Origin: a virus
Length of the DNA: 22,983 bases
Virus record (IMG/VR): IMGVR_UViG_3300045135_001970
Location: 1-22,983 of that record
Reading direction: 5' to 3' (one strand)
The position numbers and the translations under genes are program-made. The notes beneath the pieces were generated by a model. That model worked only from the letters and a program-made list of their open reading frames with translations, did no database searches and had not been told where the DNA came from. Positions 12,796 through 22,594 of the stretch are shown here, one piece after another. Each line of letters begins with the position of its first letter. The stretch's first letter is position 1.

Positions 12796-13140
12796 ATGTA
12801 TACAACAGGGAAAAACAGTAAAGGGGAAGTAGTAAAATTACCCCTACTGAATAATGGTCGAACATTGTTTTGTTCTGAAATGGATTTGGTGTCGGTCGAT
12901 ATACCTGAAGGGGTGGAGTGCTTCTATGGTAGTAAGAATGGGTTTACGGAACTAAGTCTACCTGAAGGCCTAATGATAGCCAGTGTGAATTATAATGGTA
13001 TCAAAGAACTATCTGTCCCAAATACAATAAAAACCCTATCTTGTATCGGTAACAAATTGACCGAGGTGGATGTACCACATGATCTAGTTACCTGCTATTT
13101 AGATAGCGGTGTGAATGTCAATAAAATAAAGAGAGAATAA
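12796..13140 (+). CDS. Small leucine-rich-repeat protein
   Basis: A 114-residue protein with CAGGAG about 9 bases before the ATG. From about residue 33 it shows repeats of roughly 19-20 residues: VSVDIPEGVECFYGSKNGF, TELSLPEGLMIASVNYNGI, KELSVPNTIKTLSCIGNKL and TEVDVPHDLVTCYLDSGVN. The pattern x-L-x-h-P-x-x-h-x-x-h-x-x-x-x-N-x-h is like the short bacterial LRR type seen in secreted effectors (YopM/IpaH style), though with only about four repeats and no catalytic domain. Such a solenoid normally binds another protein. It is the first gene after a probable promoter, three bases before the next gene, so it may be made early and act on a host protein; that is inference. Confidence 0.7.
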   Translation: MYTTGKNSKGEVVKLPLLNNGRTLFCSEMDLVSVDIPEGVECFYGSKNGFTELSLPEGLMIASVNYNGIKELSVPNTIKTLSCIGNKLTEVDVPHDLVTCYLDSGVNVNKIKRE

Positions 13141-13143
13141 ATT

Positions 13144-13434
13144 ATGGGTGATAAGTTAGAAAGATTAACTAAACTATTAGGTCGTGTTGAAAAGAATACA
13201 ACAGTTGGTGTTGATGAGGATGGTTGGATTGCGATAGATCATGTTGAGTCCAAGTTTCCACAACTACTACCACTATTGGATGTGCTACTGATTACAGAGA
13301 AAGGTAGACTCAATATAAGTACAATGGATATCCTCTCTAAGGCTGGATACCGTGTAACGTCTCACGAGACGGATGGTTTTGGTGAGTTATCGGCCATTGT
13401 CTGGACTAAGAAAGGTAAACTACTAGTAGTGTAG
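13144..13434 (+). CDS. Small protein with weak KptA/Tpt1-like N-lobe pattern
   Basis: A 96-residue protein, four bases after the LRR gene's stop and in the same transcript. The stretch LERLTKLLGRVE, then VGVDEDGWIAIDHV (about residues 21-34), resembles the start of RNA 2'-phosphotransferases (L..LLRH...GL.LD..GWV.ID.L). The NAD-binding C-lobe and its H/R catalytic residues are absent, and the length is only half. It may be just the winged-helix-like lobe or a chance likeness. It ends in a basic beta strand (TKKGKLLVV). A strong terminator follows at once. Confidence 0.5.
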   Translation: MGDKLERLTKLLGRVEKNTTVGVDEDGWIAIDHVESKFPQLLPLLDVLLITEKGRLNISTMDILSKAGYRVTSHETDGFGELSAIVWTKKGKLLVV

Positions 13435-13495: not shown

Positions 13496-14074
13496 ATGTC
13501 GGTTAAACTAAGGTTAGATTCTAATGTTGCCGGAGTTAAAGTTTTTGATGATGGTACCGGCGAGCTTATATGTAGCTTTTATGAACCTAAGGTAGGTACT
13601 AGTGGGGCTACCACATTCTTCTGTATACATGACGGAACACTAAAGGTCATGTACTTGGATATCCCAAAAAGTGGACTACTCAGTGACGTTGAGAAAGCTG
13701 AGTTTGTTTCAGGACTAGTGGAATCCATTAATAAACTAGACGACCATAGTAGTCTATTGGTGACGTCCTACTCGTGGTCAGATATACACCTAATCGAGTC
13801 CCCGGATACCCTACTAATAAAGTCTGGAAATAGTACCCTCTTTAAGATAGGTAGAGATACTAGCACTAAGGGTCCGCTAGTGCCATTCCCAGACAATACC
13901 ACTGGTATACTAGAAGATGCCATCGTGGGTGAAGTAATTTCCAATAGAGTGAACATGGATATGTTCCTACATAGCGTGTACAGCTTAATCAGAACAGCCA
14001 GTGATCCGCGATTGGAACACATGGAGCCTCCTTTTGCAGCAACTCCTACATCCTTCACCATCACCATACATTAG
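13496..14074 (+). CDS. Unrecognised protein, 192 residues
   Basis: The start is ATG 13496, with AAGGGG about 7 bases before it. The frame is open from 13460, but that would place the start inside the terminator hairpin and its T-run, so it is rejected. The protein begins MSVKLRLDSNVAGVKVFDDG and has a beta-rich N-terminal half, a helix near 75-90 and a second helix near 148-170, ending in a strand (TSFTITIH). No motif is recognised. It follows the terminator with no long leader, so its transcription depends on read-through or a promoter in the T-run region. Its last four bases overlap the end of the convergent minus-strand gene. Confidence 0.6.
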   Translation: MSVKLRLDSNVAGVKVFDDGTGELICSFYEPKVGTSGATTFFCIHDGTLKVMYLDIPKSGLLSDVEKAEFVSGLVESINKLDDHSSLLVTSYSWSDIHLIESPDTLLIKSGNSTLFKIGRDTSTKGPLVPFPDNTTGILEDAIVGEVISNRVNMDMFLHSVYSLIRTASDPRLEHMEPPFAATPTSFTITIH

Positions 14075-14859
14075 AAGGACGTCAACTTGAGTGCGCGATT
14101 GTATGCTGGCCTATCGTCCATGAAAGCTATCTTAGTCCACTTGGTCTCTAGGTATTCATCATACAACTCATTTGAGTCGGCATAGCTCTCTACCACATCC
14201 TTGAACTTACCTAACTCAGCACCACCATGTAAGACGCCGCTATCCATGGGTATTATGGTATTGGTATGTATCCACGCTTTAACAGCTAGTAGTACTAGCT
14301 TTGAAAATGCTTTGTATGTGGTAACGTTTAGGTTACTCATATTAGCGTCATTACTCAGCGTAACCTTTACGGACCCTACAAACCCATCGCCACCTAGATC
14401 TTTGATAGAGATAGTGTTGTCACCGATGATAGATACCTCGGCGCTATTGTTTGGTGTAGACGTCAACGCGGCGTCTGCCATCTTGTGTGCGGCACTAGAT
14501 AATGTAGAGCTACCACCCATTCCAGATAAGTACCCATTGTTTTCCACATGGTCAAAGTTTACCGAGTGCACTGCGGTAATACTTTTGTTCTGCGTTAGGT
14601 GTTTGGGGATTTTATACACCAATGTAGTGCCATCGTTGAAGATGGGTTTTAAATTACTGAGTTCGATATAATCTTGAACACCACCCACGATGTTACAGTC
14701 TTCTATAACTCTAGCATCTATAACCTTCTCTCTAATTACCGATTCCAAAGAAACAGGGTATCTTAGACTACCATAATGTGACCCTACAAAGGCATAATGG
14801 AGTACCTCTTTGGGTATGTTGAATTGAACATCTTTGATAGCTTTATCTATTGCGTTCAT
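14071..14859 (-). CDS. Unrecognised protein, 262 residues
   Basis: AAGAGG lies about 12 bases before the ATG. The protein is soluble, with an N-terminal helix-rich part and a glycine/serine-rich section (about residues 110-130: NNGYLSGMGGSSTLSSAAHK). A beta-rich section (140-180) and a C-terminal helical part follow. No catalytic motif, signal peptide or membrane helix is seen. The gene is divergent from phuZ across 143 bases and convergent, by a 4-base overlap, with the 192-residue gene. Being on the strand of the sheath and tube genes, it may be a late virion gene; this is only a guess from orientation. Confidence 0.6.
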   Translation of the reverse strand: MNAIDKAIKDVQFNIPKEVLHYAFVGSHYGSLRYPVSLESVIREKVIDARVIEDCNIVGGVQDYIELSNLKPIFNDGTTLVYKIPKHLTQNKSITAVHSVNFDHVENNGYLSGMGGSSTLSSAAHKMADAALTSTPNNSAEVSIIGDNTISIKDLGGDGFVGSVKVTLSNDANMSNLNVTTYKAFSKLVLLAVKAWIHTNTIIPMDSGVLHGGAELGKFKDVVESYADSNELYDEYLETKWTKIAFMDDRPAYNRALKLTSF

Positions 14860-15002: not shown

Positions 15003-15305
15003 ATGAAAAATGGTACTATTCGTATTTACGGTTGTGGCGGAGCAGGCACAAACATCGCGCAGCAATTCTTCGGTCTAGAGGAAGACCCGAACTTTGCTGA
15101 AATCAAAACCACTATCATCGACACTAGTCGTTCTAACCTACATGGTGGTATTCCTGACGAAGCATGCTTCATCTTACCTGACGTTGATGGTAGCGGTAAG
15201 GTTCGTAAAGAAAACCATGAAGAGATTGCCAAGTCTATCAAACCGATCCTGGTCAAACACCAACCTGAATCTTTAAATATTGTAGTGTTCTCTACAGCCG
15301 GTGGT
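15003..15305 (+). CDS. phuZ: Phage tubulin PhuZ, exon 1 (residues 1-101)
   Basis: AAGGA lies 9 bases before the ATG. Exon 1 has the tubulin/FtsZ T1 loop GCGGAGTN (residues 10-17) and a T3-like IIDTSRSN (38-45). It ends at NIVVFSTAGG, the strand and first glycines of the GTP-binding signature. Unspliced, the frame reads only seven more codons (KQAKAA-stop at 15326), giving a 107-residue fragment without GTPase activity. After splicing to exon 2 the protein is 321 residues, near the roughly 315 of the PhuZ from phage 201phi2-1. PhuZ forms GTP-driven filaments that centre the phage nucleus and transport capsids. The splice boundary is inferred from the IGS pairing (exon GGT with intron GCC at 15329-15331) and from the protein alignment. 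Confidence 0.85.
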
Positions 15306-15601
15306 AAACAAGCTAAAGCAGCTTAAATGCCTCGTCTAAGGGTGACCTTAGATTGTGCGTCTCCTAACTGCGGGGATCTCCTTAGAGTTCTATAGTACTA
15401 CTTACAACTAGAAATAGATTGTAATACCTACTCCAATAATGGAAGCAGTAGGCATAGTAAAAACCTATAGAAATTGGACAATCCGCATCGAAGTTCCTAA
15501 GCCTACGGGTATGGAATGTGATCAACGACTAACCCATTCACCAGGGTGTAGGGGTCAAGTGACCTCGAAATGGAGACATCTTTCAGACCATTAAAATAAA
15601 C

Positions 15602-15630
15602 TACCCTATTCTCGTGGGGAGAATAGGGTA
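15602..15630 (+). other. 12-pair stem-loop inside intron, before its ORF
   Basis: TACCCTATTCTC and GAGAATAGGGTA pair perfectly around GTGGG. It lies in the P8-side insertion between the ribozyme core and the ribosome site of the intron ORF. No T-run follows. It may insulate the ORF from the ribozyme fold. Confidence 0.6.
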
Positions 15631-15651
15631 CCAACAGATAAGGATTAATAT

Positions 15652-15876
15652 GTGGCTGTGCTATCTAGTAGAGCTGCCCTAGCAGCCATAACTAAAACCT
15701 ATAGGATCAACTTCGGTGATCATAATGAGGTGGTGTTTGGAGCCTATGAACTACTAAGGCGACTGAACATAACCTGTAGTAAACCATTGGCTAAAATAAC
15801 TGCGGCCGATGTGAACGTAATCCTCAACACACCCCACATCAGTGTTGAACGATTAAATTATAGTCTGAAAGAATAA
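15652..15876 (+). CDS. Intron-internal ORF, 74 residues, unknown
   Basis: The start is GTG 15652, with AAGGA (15640-15644) seven bases upstream. The overlapping ATG 15650 gives only ten residues. The ORF sits between the two P7 strands, the usual place for homing endonuclease genes in phage group I introns, and its TAA stop directly abuts the P7 3' element. The protein (ending VERLNYSLKE) has no HNH, GIY-YIG, LAGLIDADG or zinc-finger pattern. It looks like two helical stretches with a short beta-strand part. It could be an eroded endonuclease, an accessory splicing protein, or a freeloader gene. The ribosome site argues that it is expressed. Confidence 0.6.
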   Translation: MAVLSSRAALAAITKTYRINFGDHNEVVFGAYELLRRLNITCSKPLAKITAADVNVILNTPHISVERLNYSLKE

Positions 15877-15956
15877 GATATAGTCTCGCCTCTATGTGAA
15901 AGCATAGAGCTGGGTTCGTCCCGGTTCTAGAGTAACGACCTAGAATGAAGATAGCG

Positions 15957-16619
15957 ACAGGGTCAGTCTCTGGACCACTATTCATTAAAGAACTACTTGA
16001 TCGTGACGTACCTACAGTAGGTGTTGTAATCGGTGCTTCTGACTGTGCGACTACGTGTAAGAATACACTAGATACGTTGAAGTCCCTGGATAGAATTGCT
16101 CTTGCTACAAAATCACCAGTTGTTATTACCTATTTAGATAACAACGATTTTGACAACCGTAGTAAGGTGGATATTTTAGCCACTAAGACTATCTCAGCAC
16201 TATCTGCTTTAGTAGCGCCAAACAACAAGGAGTTAGATAGTCGCGACATCTCCACTTGGATCAACTTCAATCGCGTATCCTCCATTGAACCTCAGTTGGT
16301 TACGTTATCCGTATACAACGAGCATGATGAGATCGATGAGTCTAACGAGGCTGTTTCTGTGGCTACACTGTTGCGTAATTACGATAGTGCGGCACCCAAG
16401 TTAAATGCAGATTACAGTACTGTGGGTTATCGCACGGAAGAGTCAAACGATGGTCCGGACATCACATGCGTGATTGAGTTAGGTAAGGTTCCTAAGATCC
16501 ATTCATCAGTGTTGGAACGTAAGTCGAAGTTCGAAGAGTTAGAGGAGTCACGTTCGCGTGGGCGCTACTCCATCTCTGGTGACGATGATGACGTTACAGA
16601 TAGCTGCCTAGTGCTGTAA
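15957..16619 (+). CDS. phuZ: Phage tubulin PhuZ, exon 2 (residues 102-321)
   Basis: Exon 2 begins TGSVSGPLFIKELL. Joined to STAGG it gives AGGTGSVSGPLFIKEL, which aligns without gaps to the tubulin signature GGGTGSGMGTLLISKI. Then come the strand VPTVGVVIGAS and a T5/T6 region, and the T7 catalytic loop LDSRDIST with D195 and D198, spaced as in the PhuZ catalytic pair (D187/D190 in 201phi2-1). The chain ends in an acidic tail, SGDDDDVTDSCLVL; in known PhuZ proteins such a tail contacts the next subunit in the filament. An ATG at 15945 lies in the intron tail and keeps this frame open, so a routine gene call would report a separate 224-residue protein. I see no ribosome site before it. An 11-pair hairpin follows. 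Confidence 0.85.
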   Translation, partial: TGSVSGPLFIKELLDRDVPTVGVVIGASDCATTCKNTLDTLKSLDRIALATKSPVVITYLDNNDFDNRSKVDILATKTISALSALVAPNNKELDSRDISTWINFNRVSSIEPQLVTLSVYNEHDEIDESNEAVSVATLLRNYDSAAPKLNADYSTVGYRTEESNDGPDITCVIELGKVPKIHSSVLERKSKFEELEESRSRGRYSISGDDDDVTDSCLVL

Positions 16620-16784: not shown

Positions 16785-17177
16785 TTGGAAAGCTATACAT
16801 TAATATTTGATAGCCTTGAGATACGCAGGCATCTGTCGCAACACTTAACCACTTTAGTGAGAGGATACAGATATAGTCTTGAGCAGGCTAGACGGTGGCA
16901 TAGTGACCAACTACACGGTTTGATAGCACAGTCATTGTTGCGTGTGTATGGGGTAGAATGCAATAGATCCATTACGGCTACCTGTCCTAGGGTAGAATCT
17001 AAGATAAATAATGACGCATTGGATGAGTTAGATCGATTGGTGTTCAGTGTCATAAGAATACCAGCTGGGTTCTCGCCACATATAGAACTGAAGGTACATA
17101 GCGATGTAGTTGTGATTACCGGCTACTATACAGCACAACAGTCTAATCAATATCCAAACAATCCTACTAGTGTGTAA
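16785..17177 (+). CDS. Small-array protein 1, unknown
   Basis: A 130-residue protein from TTG 16785. It begins with a short strand (SYTLIFDS), a helix (LEIRRHLSQHLTTLVRG) and a second long helix. It closes with a helix (DALDELDRLVFSVI) and then a hydrophobic strand after a short turn (HSDVVVITGYY). That order (strand, helices, helix, turn with G/S-D, strand of V/I) recurs in the next six genes, although sequence identity is very low. No catalytic or membrane feature is seen. It opens the array after the probable promoter. Function unknown. Confidence 0.7.
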   Translation: MESYTLIFDSLEIRRHLSQHLTTLVRGYRYSLEQARRWHSDQLHGLIAQSLLRVYGVECNRSITATCPRVESKINNDALDELDRLVFSVIRIPAGFSPHIELKVHSDVVVITGYYTAQQSNQYPNNPTSV

Positions 17178-17192
17178 GGACAGAGAACAATA

Positions 17193-17621
17193 ATGAATAA
17201 ACTAATATTGCCTACAAGAGAACTAGCGGAGATGCTGGCTTCGTCTAGTAAGGATTTTTTTACACCACACGGATTAGATATACCGCCTCTAAAGTCTTGG
17301 ATAGATATACTAGAAGTGGCCGTTTCTGATTACTTTCATACGCGCTGTAAGTGGAATGATAGTGGTAAGACTCTTCTACCAGCCACACTCAGAGAGAAGT
17401 TCGAGTGGTTTGATGAGGCGTGTGACTTCTCAAATTGCTGGTATATGGAAGTGTTTGATCCGTTCGACCTAAGGATTATGGAGCTTTTAAATAAAGTAGG
17501 GGGACTTACAGGTTGGGAAGAATGGTCTATCAGTGTAGTAGCTGGCGACCTAGTGGTGGTGATTCAGGAGGATCACCGTATCTTAGAATGGCATAGACAG
17601 AATGGTGTTCCGTATGAGTAA
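17193..17621 (+). CDS. Small-array protein 2, unknown
   Basis: A 142-residue acidic protein, 15 bases after the previous stop, with AAGGA some 12 bases before the ATG. Layout: strand and helix at the start (LILPTRELAEMLASS), a proline turn then helix (DIPPLKSWIDILEVAVSDYF), and a tryptophan-rich middle. A late helix (LRIMELLNKVGGLTGW) leads to the closing strand VVAGDLVVVIQED. The last part is the clearest form of the motif shared along the array. It overlaps the next gene. No family recognised. Confidence 0.7.
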   Translation: MNKLILPTRELAEMLASSSKDFFTPHGLDIPPLKSWIDILEVAVSDYFHTRCKWNDSGKTLLPATLREKFEWFDEACDFSNCWYMEVFDPFDLRIMELLNKVGGLTGWEEWSISVVAGDLVVVIQEDHRILEWHRQNGVPYE

Positions 17622-18090
17622 GACATACTTAATATCTCTTGCAGCACTTGAAAGGGAGCTTAGGGATGTACTTAGACAGAATGTAAAACCATCTACTCTA
17701 GCCGACGTAATAAATATCTACCCTATAATAGACGACATTTTACTTCAGCAGATATACGGTAATATACCTAGAGAGATGTTGAATGAGGACGCATTCTCTA
17801 TGTTGTCGCACTATAGACTACCCCCTGATAGAATATTGTCAGTAATAGAGCTACTTAAATCCACCTTAAACTCGACGATAGAAAGAACGATCGGTGGTTT
17901 GACTAGGTGGTCCGATTACGACTATCAGATGGTGGCTGGCTGTACTTTAATTCTTACAGACAATGGTGATGGTAGGGATAGACTGATTGCGGAACTACAA
18001 AGAAAGTTAAGTGAGAGAGAATTAGAACATGGCGATGCATTCGAAAAGCTTTACGGGAGAAGGGAGTGTAATCCTACCTATAGTAGATAA
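17614..18090 (+). CDS. Small-array protein 3, unknown
   Basis: 158 residues from ATG 17614, which overlaps the previous stop by 8 bases; ATG 17602 in the same frame would add four residues, and neither has a good ribosome site, as expected for coupled translation. Layout: strand and helix (TYLISLAALERELRDVL), proline then helix (KPSTLADVINIYPIIDDIL), late helix (SVIELLKSTLNSTIERTIGG), then YDYQMVAGCTLILTDNG. It carries an extra charged C-terminal helix (about 125-150) absent from its neighbours. The last 62 bases overlap the next gene. Confidence 0.65.
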   Translation: MSKTYLISLAALERELRDVLRQNVKPSTLADVINIYPIIDDILLQQIYGNIPREMLNEDAFSMLSHYRLPPDRILSVIELLKSTLNSTIERTIGGLTRWSDYDYQMVAGCTLILTDNGDGRDRLIAELQRKLSERELEHGDAFEKLYGRRECNPTYSR

Positions 18091-18457
18091 ATGGATTTTC
18101 CAAGATAGTGTCTTAACTGAACTGGATGACCTAGGTCATAGTCCGGAAGATTTAATTGCTGATGTTGTTCAGATATGGCTTACCATGAGAACAGCCTCGT
18201 GTTCACCTCGGAGCGTAGAGGAGGTGGTGTCAATGACACTACCTGAGTATATGTACGACCTCGTTGTGTTCAATTTGGATACTTACAGATCTCTTGAATG
18301 TATGGTGGTTAAAGCAGTTAAGGAATACCTACCTATCTTGGATAGGGTATTTATAAACCCCATGGATTTATTCCAGCTGTATTTTGAAAGTTTTTGCGGG
18401 GACGGAATAGTACTTGTTGCTGAGTATGGAGGAATGAATGATAAGCTGGGTTGTTAG
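18029..18457 (+). CDS. Small-array protein 4, unknown
   Basis: 142 residues from ATG 18029, overlapping the previous gene by 62 bases. The long overlap and the weak GAGAGA ribosome site leave the start uncertain. GGAGAAGGGAG at 18055-18065 looks like a ribosome site, but no standard start codon in this frame follows it. The protein has proline-helix (HSPEDLIADVVQIWLTM), late helix (ECMVVKAVKEYLPILDRVF) and closing strand (CGDGIVLVAEYGG), matching the array pattern. Acidic and soluble. Confidence 0.6.
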   Translation: MAMHSKSFTGEGSVILPIVDKWIFQDSVLTELDDLGHSPEDLIADVVQIWLTMRTASCSPRSVEEVVSMTLPEYMYDLVVFNLDTYRSLECMVVKAVKEYLPILDRVFINPMDLFQLYFESFCGDGIVLVAEYGGMNDKLGC

Positions 18458-18782
18458 TACTGAATTACTTTGGTTTATGATGGATGATAAGTCGGAAGAA
18501 CTACCGTTAAACTGTTTTCACGATACGGATATATTAGAGCACGCAATACAGACAGCGGTGACTGGAGTGGAATCTGTTAATGATAGGGAATTGTTGTTTG
18601 AGATATGTGGACTATCTAAAGACGGAGAGGGTATGTCTTTCCTTAGTTCTAAGTTAGGTGAGTTCATTGATGAACTTATAGAGGCGACTGAGTTGATACT
18701 GGAGAGATCTTTGGGTGTGTATGCTTTTGAGACATACGACTACGATTGGATGGGTAGAGACATTATTGTGTCTACAGAATAA
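18438..18782 (+). CDS. Small-array protein 5, unknown
   Basis: 114 residues from ATG 18438, with TGGAGGA 5 bases upstream inside the end of the previous gene, so the start is coupled to it. The N-terminal strand (ISWVVSTELLWFM) is followed by a helix (DTDILEHAIQTAVTGVE), a late helix (FIDELIEATELILERSLGVY) and a closing strand (WMGRDIIVSTE). Strongly acidic. It fits the array pattern and is the shortest member. Confidence 0.65.
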   Translation: MISWVVSTELLWFMMDDKSEELPLNCFHDTDILEHAIQTAVTGVESVNDRELLFEICGLSKDGEGMSFLSSKLGEFIDELIEATELILERSLGVYAFETYDYDWMGRDIIVSTE

Positions 18783-18797
18783 CTAGATGAGGTGGTT

Positions 18798-19175
18798 ATG
18801 TACGAATTCGAATCGCCTCATGCGGGTGAAAGACTCATTACTCTTGAAACCTCTACCATATTGGTGGAGTTAGAAGAACGACTCTATGGGCTGGAGTACT
18901 TCGAATACGACCTCCCTGAACTCATGTCTATTTTAGTGGAGGCTATCTCCATAAACCCAAACCACACTCCTGATGGTAGGGAAGACTATCTTACCCGATA
19001 CATTAGTGCTTACTGTACAGTGGCTGACACCGAACATTCTGTAATGTGCGTGATGTTGACCTTCGTGAGAAAGGTTGAGGCCAGACTTTGGTTATTGGGA
19101 CTTGCTAAGGGTAGTGAAGTGGTGAGGTTTGTTGGGTTGTCTGGTAAGGATATAATGGTTGGAGTCAGTGGATGA
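18798..19175 (+). CDS. Small-array protein 6, unknown
   Basis: 125 residues from ATG 18798; GAGG is 5 bases upstream, which favours it over GTG 18792. It has a helix (STILVELEERLYGLEYF), an exact proline-helix (YDLPELMSILVEAISI), a late helix (MLTFVRKVEARLWLLGLA) and a closing strand (LSGKDIMVGVSG). The D-x-P-x-L form here is close to that of array protein 2. The stop overlaps the next start (ATGA). Confidence 0.65.
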   Translation: MYEFESPHAGERLITLETSTILVELEERLYGLEYFEYDLPELMSILVEAISINPNHTPDGREDYLTRYISAYCTVADTEHSVMCVMLTFVRKVEARLWLLGLAKGSEVVRFVGLSGKDIMVGVSG

Positions 19176-19519
19176 TTACGGTATTTATCGAACTGAATGG
19201 TGTGAGGGATCTAGTTGATGCTATAGATGCACACATGGCCTCTAACGATTACGACGTAGGTAGCGGTTTGAGACTAACAAACACTATCCTTAACCATGAG
19301 TTGGGAATTAGCATAGTGGAGTGTCCTCTAGAACACCATTTTGATTATAGTCTATTGTCGCATCACGTGAGTCAGTTAATGGCTGAACTATTAAGTGTTT
19401 TGACTATACACGCCATACCCGACATAAACATATGTAATGCATTGGTAACCACACGCAGTGGTGCGTGTGTATTATACGTAGATGAATACGAACAGGAGAA
19501 TAGTAATGCTCGTAAGTGA
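19172..19519 (+). CDS. Small-array protein 7, unknown
   Basis: 115 residues; ATGA overlap with the previous gene shows coupled translation. Strand and helix at the start (ITVFIELNGVRDLVDAIDAH), middle helix (RLTNTILNHELGI), late helix (HVSQLMAELLSVLTIHAI) and closing strand (RSGACVLYVDEYEQE). It fits the array pattern, though the proline before the middle helix is replaced by glycine. The next gene's start at 19506 overlaps its last codons. Confidence 0.65.
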   Translation: MITVFIELNGVRDLVDAIDAHMASNDYDVGSGLRLTNTILNHELGISIVECPLEHHFDYSLLSHHVSQLMAELLSVLTIHAIPDINICNALVTTRSGACVLYVDEYEQENSNARK

Positions 19520-19907
19520 TGTACGAATTGGAGACACCGTTGACTTCCAATTACATACCAATTCAGCGTTGCCTTTAAAATACCTAGGTGTAAAAGTGTT
19601 GGCCGTATTGGATCTAGGTACGGCCAGACTGTTTAGTCCGGTAGAGTCTTACCATACAAGTATCTACCCTACATTACCGGAAGGAACACCTAACGACGCT
19701 AACGACTACCTATACTTTAAGCTACAACAGATGAATGGCGAGGTTGTTTGTATAGGTCAACCATGGGTTCGTGAGGAGACTCTTGCTGTAGCAGGTAGGT
19801 CTACATTACAAGTCACTATCGACAATGTTACTGTAGAAGATATACCTAAAGTGGTAGAGGCATTGAGTTCCAACGGATATACGGTATCTGAAACAAAGAC
19901 CGTGTAG
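19506..19907 (+). CDS. Small protein with SH3-like N-terminus and alpha/beta C-terminus
   Basis: 133 residues from ATG 19506, chosen because CAGGAG ends 7 bases upstream; the longer frame from 19482 is rejected. It differs from the seven genes before it. The N-terminal part (VSDVRIGDTVDFQL and LKYLGVKVLAVLDLGTARLF) suggests a small beta-barrel. The end (TLQVTIDNVTVEDIPKVVEALSSNGYTV) has a strand-helix-strand pattern. No known function. It is in the same transcript as the array and 27 bases before the macrodomain gene. Confidence 0.65.
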   Translation: MLVSDVRIGDTVDFQLHTNSALPLKYLGVKVLAVLDLGTARLFSPVESYHTSIYPTLPEGTPNDANDYLYFKLQQMNGEVVCIGQPWVREETLAVAGRSTLQVTIDNVTVEDIPKVVEALSSNGYTVSETKTV

Positions 19908-19934: not shown

Positions 19935-20378
19935 TTGGCTGATTTTAAAATAACCACAGGAAACATCTTCGACAGTAAGGCGGATGCACTAGTGTGTCCC
20001 GTCAACTGTGTTGGTGTGATGGGTAAAGGACTAGCCTTATCATTTAAACGTAAGTTTCCAGGACTCCATGAGAACTATAGTCGAGCCTGCGAGGAAGGAG
20101 GATTTACCATAGGATCCATTCACGCCTATGAGTCTTTAAATAGGGTAATACTATCCCTACCTACTAAACTACACTGGAGAAACCCTAGTGAGGTGGAGTA
20201 CGTGAGGGATGGGTTAAAGGGACTGGTCGCCGCTACACGTAGTCTTAACATTAAATCCATAGCGTTACCTATGTTAGGGTGTGGTTGTGGTGGACTTGAC
20301 TTTGATCTGGATGTATATCCACTAATGGTGGATATTCTTTCGAGTACTGACCTCGACTATGAGATTTATGTAAACTAA
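19935..20378 (+). CDS. DarG-type macrodomain ADP-ribosyl hydrolase
   Basis: 147 residues from TTG 19935, with GAGGT 7 bases upstream. It is a complete single macrodomain. TTGNIFDSKADALVCPVNCV (8-27) holds the adenine-binding acidic position and the N of the NCVGVMGKG loop. ILSLPTKLHWRNPS (72-85) carries K78 at the place of the catalytic lysine of Thermus DarG. IALPMLGCGCGGLDF is the diphosphate-binding loop. DarG removes ADP-ribose from DNA modified by the toxin DarT; this protein lacks the second, DarT-binding domain of DarG. The likely role is to reverse DarT-type host defence or other ADP-ribosylation. Appr-1''-phosphate processing is a weaker alternative. It precedes a strong terminator. 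Confidence 0.88.
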   Translation: MADFKITTGNIFDSKADALVCPVNCVGVMGKGLALSFKRKFPGLHENYSRACEEGGFTIGSIHAYESLNRVILSLPTKLHWRNPSEVEYVRDGLKGLVAATRSLNIKSIALPMLGCGCGGLDFDLDVYPLMVDILSSTDLDYEIYVN

Positions 20379-20464: not shown

Positions 20465-22594
20465 ATGATGAATTTGTTCCACCTAGACCCTACAGAATAT
20501 GTGCGTGATTTCAATATCCGATCCAATTACGTAGAAGACACCAGTTTTTATATCTCCACCATGACCGACGCTCCTTTGGATGAGGTTAGGGATTTTACTG
20601 TAGAAAAGTTAAAGGACGGTACATTCAACGTAGTGGATCCAGAGGTACTAGTAACAAATAGAGCACCTAATGGTGATAGAAGTTTACATCAAACAACATT
20701 TAGCGAATACCTCCACCATATCGAATCAAATGGACACATCGTTAGTCCTTCAGGTACGGTCTACACCAATCCGAACATAGAGAGATCTTACTTATCGAAG
20801 TATATCGAAGGTAATATAGACAAGCGGAATAAGGTAAAACATTTAAAGTTTGTCAGGAAGCAAGAGGGTGACAAACAGGGCGCACAAGACGCCGATAGAC
20901 TACAGTCAACCTTTAAGGTTAAAAACAATTCCTTATCCGGCGCACATGCCTCAAAGGGTACTATGTTATTTAACCTATCTAACCACCCTACTTTAACAAG
21001 TACTTGTTGTAGTACTACCAGTTACGCCAACGCCAACAATGAGCGTTTTCTTTTTGGAAATAGACACTACTACCATCCTGACGTAGCCATGGATAACATA
21101 GTGTCTGTTGTTAGAAACGCAGACATGGACTTAATACATAAGGCTATAGAAGAGTACGACCTAGTGTGTCCTACTGTAGAGCAGGTTTGTGAGTCCGTAT
21201 ACGAGTCATGCAAGTATTACTTCCGTGACGCTGAATTCATAGAGTATAGAGTTAAACCATTCCTGGAGAAGCTCACTCCGGAACAACTGGCTGCATATTA
21301 CTACAGTAACAACTTTAAGGCACTTAGAGATCTTAATGAGAAGTTCGTATGGGACTTCCTAGACAAACTGAGCACACAATCCCACAGTAGAGTGGATGAT
21401 CCTGAGAAGGTCATCTCATCTGCGGATGGCGACCTTATGGCTTACATTGGTGTACTATGTATGGACATCACTCGTGGTACTACATTAAAGGCCGTATCTA
21501 AGAACAATCCAGAAGGCTACAATACCATCGCATCTACCATCCTCACTGTGACAGAGACACTAGAGTCGTATAGAACCTTGATTAGAGCGTTTTGGGTAAC
21601 TAAGAGTCAGCCATCGAATATGGCTGCATTTAGTAGTGCGGTCAGAAAGGGAGTGGTTGTTTCGGATACAGACTCAACCATCTTTACACTACAGGAATGG
21701 GTCATTTGGTTCGAAGGTAAGTTAAGTTTCAGTGATAAGGCCGTAAAAATATCCGCAGCTTTAACATACATCGTCTCAATGTGTACTATTCACCTATTAG
21801 CTAACATGTCAGCTAGTATCGGTGTGGTGAGTGAGAAGCTCTTTCAGATAGCCATGAAGAATGAATTCCTGATGCCTGTCGTCATAATGACTAGTAGAGG
21901 TAAGCACTATACTTACTACAATTCAGTGTGTGAAGGTAACGTATACGAGGAACTGGATTTTGTTACAAAAGGTGTTGGTCTGAAGAACTCCAAACTACCA
22001 AAGCATGTGATCAATAGGCTGGAGGAGTTTATTAAGGCTATTATGGACACCATTATGGCTGAACAACCAGTGTCCTTAGAGTGGGCTGTGAAGTATGCGG
22101 GAGATATAGAGAGGGAGATTTATAGGTCTTTGGCAGACGGAGAGATTGACTACTTGAGTATGGGTAGAATTAATCCTAGATCTAACTATAAGAACCCTAC
22201 AGCATCGGCATTTGTCTATGATGAGATATGGAATAAAGGCTTCTCTGGTAAGTATGGCCCAGCCCCAGAACCTACCTATAGTACAGTTAAAGTAAATCTA
22301 ACTACTGGCTCTAAGACGAAAGTTAGTGCTTGGCTAGAGTCCATTGAGGATATAGAGTTGAGGGATAGTATCCAAACAGCCTTGGGTGATCATGGTAGAC
22401 TAGATGGGTTTCCTACTATGCAGATACCGTTGGAGATTGCTGTGTCCTCCGGCATCCCTAAAGAGCTCAGAGGCATTATCGACTCTAGAGAACTAGTGGC
22501 CACAACTATGGATGGCTATTACCTAATCCTAGAGTCTCTGGGTATCTACGCCAACGATGGTCAAAGACAGCGATTGGTGTCTGATGACTACTAG
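20465..22594 (+). CDS. Family B DNA polymerase, palm/fingers half (split enzyme)
   Basis: 709 residues; ATG 20465 (or 20468) follows CAGG, and an in-frame stop lies two codons upstream, so the chain starts here. Motifs in order: the motif A region at the very N-terminus (LDPTEY, then RDFNI, residues 7-18, with D8 the candidate metal ligand); NGHIVSPSGTVY (89-100); motif B K151..NS(155-156)..G159; motif C SDTDS (400-404, with D401 and D403 the metal ligands); K480-H-Y482 and TKG (501-503) as in the thumb-side KxY and KG motifs. The 3'-5' exonuclease and N-terminal domains are missing and must be encoded elsewhere. Motifs B and C are about 245 residues apart, against about 60 in RB69, so there is a large insertion. 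It replicates phage DNA, in phiKZ-type phages inside the phage nucleus. Confidence 0.85.
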   Translation: MMNLFHLDPTEYVRDFNIRSNYVEDTSFYISTMTDAPLDEVRDFTVEKLKDGTFNVVDPEVLVTNRAPNGDRSLHQTTFSEYLHHIESNGHIVSPSGTVYTNPNIERSYLSKYIEGNIDKRNKVKHLKFVRKQEGDKQGAQDADRLQSTFKVKNNSLSGAHASKGTMLFNLSNHPTLTSTCCSTTSYANANNERFLFGNRHYYHPDVAMDNIVSVVRNADMDLIHKAIEEYDLVCPTVEQVCESVYESCKYYFRDAEFIEYRVKPFLEKLTPEQLAAYYYSNNFKALRDLNEKFVWDFLDKLSTQSHSRVDDPEKVISSADGDLMAYIGVLCMDITRGTTLKAVSKNNPEGYNTIASTILTVTETLESYRTLIRAFWVTKSQPSNMAAFSSAVRKGVVVSDTDSTIFTLQEWVIWFEGKLSFSDKAVKISAALTYIVSMCTIHLLANMSASIGVVSEKLFQIAMKNEFLMPVVIMTSRGKHYTYYNSVCEGNVYEELDFVTKGVGLKNSKLPKHVINRLEEFIKAIMDTIMAEQPVSLEWAVKYAGDIEREIYRSLADGEIDYLSMGRINPRSNYKNPTASAFVYDEIWNKGFSGKYGPAPEPTYSTVKVNLTTGSKTKVSAWLESIEDIELRDSIQTALGDHGRLDGFPTMQIPLEIAVSSGIPKELRGIIDSRELVATTMDGYYLILESLGIYANDGQRQRLVSDDY

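Follow-up and report, generated by a model that had tools for sequence, protein, structure and literature searches.

A diverged family of small proteins encoded in tandem arrays between the PhuZ and SH3DP-polymerase genes of nucleus-forming jumbo phages

What kind of genes fill the interval between the phage tubulin gene and the DNA polymerase of a phiKZ-like jumbo phage, and what might they do there? The window considered here, a virus fragment of 22,983 bases analysed at its full length, holds seven consecutive small open reading frames of 114-158 aa that run head to tail from 16785 to 19519, much as an earlier note on this DNA had described them; that note took them for tandem paralogues that had duplicated and then diverged rapidly, in the manner of arms-race genes. 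Profile matches in the window identify a tail sheath, a terminase, PhuZ, SH3DP (PF20287), a macro-domain protein and a divergent family-B DNA polymerase of the phiKZ-like type. Since the polymerase is at best ~37% identical to the polymerases of 285 phage records, the window represents a divergent lineage. We put the probability that the array as a whole is one diverged paralogous family at about 93%. Most of the seven are members of one family, hitherto unlinked, whose small and mostly acidic proteins consist of a single domain with a predicted architecture of one strand, four helices and a C-terminal hairpin. The family occurs as tandem arrays in the interval between PhuZ and the SH3DP-polymerase pair of nucleus-forming jumbo phages, and its copies are largely old tandem duplications that have kept their order and diverged almost past recognition under purifying selection. 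The genes concerned, with array genes named hereafter by their first coordinate, are these:

15003-16619, + strand: gene for the tubulin PhuZ, interrupted by a group I intron; bounds the array on the left
16785-17177, + strand: array gene 1, 130 aa, likely TTG start after AAAGGAGG; family A14
17193-17621, + strand: array gene 2, 142 aa; A0 superfamily (relatives of phiKZ gp43 / phrog_14023)
17614-18090, + strand: array gene 3, 158 aa; paralogue of 17193 within the A0 superfamily
18029-18457, + strand: array gene 4, 142 aa; placed only through its position, its size and a weak profile score
18438-18782, + strand: array gene 5, 114 aa; linked moderately, by way of its long helix and C-terminal hairpin
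18798-19175, + strand: array gene 6, 125 aa; A9 superfamily
19172-19519, + strand: array gene 7, 115 aa; last gene before SH3DP
19506-19907, + strand: SH3DP, an SH3-fold protein tied to phage DNA polymerases (PF20287, E 5.4e-31); right border
20465-22594, + strand: divergent family-B DNA polymerase, 709 aa (phrog_2927, E 3e-218); anchor for related loci

Used as single queries against viral contigs, the SH3DP and the polymerase of the window retrieved no relatives; an alignment was needed, and a polymerase alignment retrieved 80 IMG/VR loci, to which seven named phages were added, genes in these loci being predicted with a simple gene caller and grouped into families by phmmer clustering. The order of the region is kept: PhuZ or the homologue of phiKZ042, a row of small genes, SH3DP, polymerase. 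A count of array genes in related phages, suggested in the earlier note as a check, bears the reading out, with small genes in the PhuZ-to-SH3DP interval of all 60 loci that have both borders (5-12 each, median 8) and an A0-type gene in 59 of them, some of the 60 being near-identical copies, so that the figure overstates the number of independent lineages. SH3DP lies directly downstream of the array in nearly all loci. In these related loci, neighbouring array genes are separated by a median of 3 bp and 42% overlap, which makes the layout operon-like; SH3DP (phiKZ049) has this operon-like row in common with the array genes but, unlike them, forms a separate Pfam family and evolves more slowly. 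Close relatives differ by the gain or loss of single genes, c102 for example.

Databases give little purchase on these proteins. None of the seven has a Pfam match, the gathering score of PF20287 being reached by the downstream gene alone, and PHROGs returns sub-threshold matches only; Pfam has no entry for the family, and PHROGs splits it. Comparison among the related loci is more informative. By phmmer, 17193 and 17614 fall into one cluster with adjacent gene pairs of many other loci, and adjacent duplicates inside one genome match at up to E 1e-21. The profile-profile comparison that the earlier note had set as a test of paralogy gave significant scores against its controls: hhalign assigns a probability above 90% to 10 of 780 array-family pairs and above 50% to 19 of 780, mostly over 85-120 columns and, for A9-type families, almost end to end, while from the same loci 0 of 780 non-array pairs and 0 of 1,200 array-versus-non-array pairs exceed 20%. 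Iterative profiles gather an A0 superfamily of 92 members and an A9 superfamily of 66, the latter with as many as three neighbouring members in a single genome, and their sub-threshold matches are mostly other array genes. A merged profile, built along the structural correspondence of the two models described below, reached E<10 for 125 of the 340 array genes outside the superfamilies, compared with 17 of 587 other proteins (Fisher p 2e-43). The long A0 members (300-357 aa) were considered as fused tandem copies, an idea we rejected, since each is a single domain with a long insertion.

The C-terminal strings on which the earlier note had built its shared motif are present in all seven proteins, but the motif itself is a weak signal: a relaxed form of it turns up in 60% of array proteins, and also in 36% of the remaining small proteins encoded at these loci and in 41% of array C-termini after shuffling. 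Being so common in small proteins and shuffles, it was set aside as stand-alone evidence. It is the profile-profile similarity, with its clean controls, and the common predicted fold that argue for a likeness beyond chance.

How far this likeness extends to each of the seven was assessed with profiles built without the window's own rows and with 400 shuffles of each protein. The best placed is 17193 (62.6 bits; hhalign 99.2%), followed by its cluster partner 17614 (47.1 bits, 0 of 400 shuffles as good; hhalign 94.6%) and by 18798, a member of the A9 iterative profile (20.5 bits). For 16785 the clear placement comes through A14 only, a family that sits beside A0-type genes in other loci and that sequence alone does not connect with the superfamilies A0 and A9; the gene scores 19.9 bits against the A14 profile, with none of 400 shuffles as good, and aligns at an hhalign probability of 76% over residues 16-139 of its longer ORF. 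The merged profile reaches 18438 at E 0.4 (Z 2000), with model positions 75-119 on residues 72-112, and none of 400 shuffles scores as well. The remaining two are less secure. Seven of 400 shuffles equal the merged-profile score of 18029, whose alignment is out of register; 19172 scores 7.0 bits against the A24 profile, with 3 of 400 shuffles as good, and may, on weak evidence, be the probable positional counterpart of family c24, the final gene ahead of SH3DP. Judged from these scores, then, the claim that all seven are paralogues holds clearly for four (16785, 17193, 17614 and 18798) and moderately for 18438, and is weakly supported for 18029 and 19172. The likely starts are those of 16785, 17614 and 18798 as listed. 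No score on the array profiles was obtained for SH3DP, the macro-domain protein or the upstream ORFs 12796-13140 and 13144-13434, and the last two were rejected as additional array members for that reason.

Structure prediction, also proposed in the earlier note, joins two proteins that have no detectable sequence similarity to each other. The AlphaFold2 model of 17193 (pLDDT 92.5, pTM 0.83) places strand 2-6, helices 8-26, 33-51, 62-74 and 77-101, and strands 109-116 and 119-127; that of 18798 (pLDDT 87.2, pTM 0.81) places strand 12-16, helices 19-30, 39-50, 60-72 and 76-99, and strands 108-115 and 118-124. Compared by the order and length of their elements, without superposition, these two models out of the seven proteins have an identical predicted β-α-α-α-α-β-β topology, with a fourth helix of ~24 residues and a C-terminal hairpin. 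Both have BFVD matches among the uncharacterised proteins that phiKZ-related phages encode, the targets common to them including A0A976RU89, A0A481W487, A0A7R7EFI8, W8D0F2 and A0A7D3QIV5, and the named structure matches at probabilities above 0.9 are proteins of jumbo phages or environmental myoviruses. A0A481W487, from phage Psa21, has 305 aa, the length of the A0-type gene gp039 of that phage; matches in Psa21 and Eowyn fit several array genes each, lengths rather than accessions having been compared. Against the PDB, fold comparison gave best VIA Z scores of 4.1 and 4.0, none at 5 or above, and Foldseek with the 17193 model a best E of 1.1, none below 1; this absence of a PDB match to the predicted structures leaves a new fold unproven. 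PDB sequence matches of low score (designed helical proteins, SecA, SNF5, ALG-2) were discarded as helix bias.

That there is no single family, and that the seven are unrelated small proteins alike only as short helix-rich phage proteins are, could draw on the commonness of the C-terminal motif, on the scant links of 18029 and 19172 and on the matches of helical-family profiles to designed proteins, but it is very improbable given that the same procedure, applied to control families from these loci, yields nothing, that A9-type alignments run almost end to end, that the two models agree element by element, and that the high-probability structure matches are to phage proteins of the kinds just named.

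Among known proteins the nearest is phiKZ gp43, which with its close relatives forms phrog_14023 and which phmmer clusters and profile searches both place in the A0 superfamily. The direct match is slight: 17193 aligns with the 116-148 segment of phrog_14023 over 33 residues at E 0.013, below significance, with no full-length match, and gp43 differs from 17193 in its length of 357 aa and in a long insertion inside the chain. No link between gp43 and phiKZ 044-048 is made in PHROGs. In the phiKZ genome the A4 profile finds the place of gp43 alone, and the A3 and A5 profiles find no match.

The family extends beyond the polymerase locus. A profile search of whole records found members far from the polymerase, with two additional clusters each in the genomes G012, G018 and G020. 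Second clusters lie near genes for ribonucleotide reductase, dCTP deaminase or QueC-like proteins. The third cluster holds a run of five A9-type genes in G020 and six, not all adjacent, in G018. By locus, third arrays with five or six A9-type genes lie at 4439-7575 of L094 and 5627-7739 of L101. Genes on the opposite strand adjoin the third arrays of G018, L094 and L101, a DnaB-like helicase being among those genes in G018 and L094. One of the 12 profile matches in G018, in a 475-codon frame, might have been a domain fusion and was treated as chance after its ORF was read. Since the A9 profile finds nothing or almost nothing in the named phages, the multi-array organisation holds for one part of the group only. 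A second array is possible in phage Desertfox as well, because a 136-aa BFVD match from that phage has no gene of its length in the polymerase array, and gp28 and gp51, which lie elsewhere, fit.

The array genes are the fastest-diverging genes of the region. Where polymerases average 84% identity, PhuZ retains 79%, SH3DP 69% and the array genes 59%; at 55% polymerase identity the array genes stand at 27%, close to the random floor. In a tree whose bootstrap values are not fully settled and in which many branches are long, genes group by array position across genomes, and some neighbours are sisters. For the tandem pair c52 (6619-7443 in L018, 6639-7465 in L020), identity is 28-31% within a genome and 38-41% between genomes by position, so this duplication predates the split of these phages. 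Across six locus pairs with unsaturated dS, whole-gene dN/dS of array genes is 0.04-0.47, with no value above 1. One gene, c43 (19521-20096 in L082), has a pS lower than its pN against L008, probably through a poor alignment or a truncated ORF. Tree, identities and dN/dS together indicate duplication that is mostly old, divergence that is fast and selection that is purifying on average. The earlier note's account of duplication followed by fast divergence is thus upheld by adjacent homologues, by the position-grouped tree and by the gap between array and polymerase identities; its arms-race interpretation is not supported as such, whole-gene dN/dS being well below 1 and an array being present in every related locus that has both borders.

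What do these proteins do? Our best guess, a tentative one to which we give rather less than even odds, is that they are acidic protein-binding subunits serving phage replication. Compared with their neighbours, array proteins are acidic, lysine-poor and aromatic-rich, a composition that favours protein over DNA binding, and their being universal, fixed in place and held under purifying selection speaks for a constrained role next to replication. Each copy would be a protein-binding module, and the set would supply distinct subunits of an assembly that helps to replicate phage DNA inside or at the phage nucleus; binding partners may co-diverge with them, in which case fold and gene order would stay and sequences would drift. 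SH3DP itself has been suggested as a possible polymerase subunit (PMC7824862). The replication context recurs at the outlying arrays, with the DnaB-like helicase beside the third array of G018 and ribonucleotide reductase or dCTP deaminase near second arrays. We regard the helicase and polymerase neighbours as no more than suggestive of a role in replication; as evidence they are weak, given that one operon can hold unrelated functions. Knockdown of phiKZ049 (SH3DP), 050 (polymerase), 042 and 039 impairs phiKZ infection (PMC12571901), the effect of 049 and 050 counting in favour of replication subunits. Against them, phiKZ043-048 are absent from the listed hits of that screen (PMC12571901); fast divergence also fits conflict genes.

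Just behind replication subunits, and likewise short of probable, we rank host- or rival-directed effectors: inhibitors or decoys of small size, aimed at the defences of the bacterium or at phages infecting the same cell, encoded by an array that duplication would have expanded and whose diversity an arms race would maintain. Fast change and copy-number variation favour a role in conflict, and here the rapid divergence of the array genes, the spread of 5-12 genes with single genes such as c102 gained or lost between close relatives, the several arrays of some genomes, and the small size and acidity of the proteins all count. The logic would resemble that of tandem multigene families in large eukaryotic DNA viruses. 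African swine fever virus MGFs, for instance, are variable in presence, and for the most part have been linked to host range and immune evasion; like the array, they form several sets of tandem, strongly diverged paralogues per viral genome. Unlike them, the array, in unrelated viruses and of unrelated proteins, is present in every bounded locus. Its one fixed place in all 60 of these, the gene order kept despite strong sequence divergence, and a whole-gene dN/dS well below 1 speak against effectors, although such averages would hide a few selected surface sites.

A broader version of the replication-subunit reading, which we consider unlikely, is that all or nearly all small genes of the interval, together with the outlying arrays, form one multigene family of unsolved fold, building a co-assembled heteromeric machine universal in nucleus-forming phages. 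Sequence divergence too fast for matching would have kept such a machine out of the core genome of the Chimalliviridae, which is defined as genes in >90% of chimallin-encoding phages (PMC10299810); a criterion of that kind can miss genes diverging as fast as these.

Improbable, in our judgement, is a role as cargo or import adaptors of the phage nucleus, surface-reading proteins that would work with PicA/Imp1 to decide entry and would diverge since each phage must separate its own proteins from those of a rival. PicA-based import uses species-specific protein surfaces as signals (PMC11087766), which predicts fast co-divergence, and the named relatives include several nucleus-forming phages. 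However, PicA (phiKZ069) is encoded outside the array interval, and the phage-nucleus literature, as far as we covered it, gives no array protein as an import factor. PicA/Imp1, ChmB, ChmC and other phage-nucleus proteins are encoded by the same phage group as the array; PicA/Imp1, ChmB and ChmC lie at other loci, and sequence comparison found no relation between them and the array family.

In the part of the phage literature covered here, no paper describes this family, and a 2026 review counts the function of small uncharacterised jumbo-phage genes among the open questions (PMC13282480). Genes so far listed as individual unknowns can be treated as a single family for study. If one fold does unite many of these small genes, work on phiKZ gp43 would inform many of them, gene-by-gene knockdowns could allow for redundancy between paralogues, and the question of why one domain was multiplied and diversified beside replication genes would become testable.

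Several observations concern the neighbouring genes. The macro-domain protein (PF01661, E 1.5e-14) at 19935-20378, between SH3DP and the polymerase, is absent from that position in most related loci. On the other side, the sequence of the short ORF at 12796-13140 resembles leucine-rich repeats, and immediately upstream of PhuZ, on the minus strand, 14071-14859 encodes a phrog_3179 protein that is probably the homologue of phiKZ042, a gene whose knockdown is among the strongest in the published screen (PMC12571901). The second part of PhuZ matches phrog_4733 (E 1.3e-48), and both parts align with the unsplit PhuZ genes of related loci. The group I intron between them (RF00028, 15314-15908, 62.1 bits, E 8.8e-14) contains a 74-aa ORF at 15652-15876, and positions 15468-15573 of the window are 74.5% identical to the DNA under phiPA3 gene 133, a putative endonuclease.
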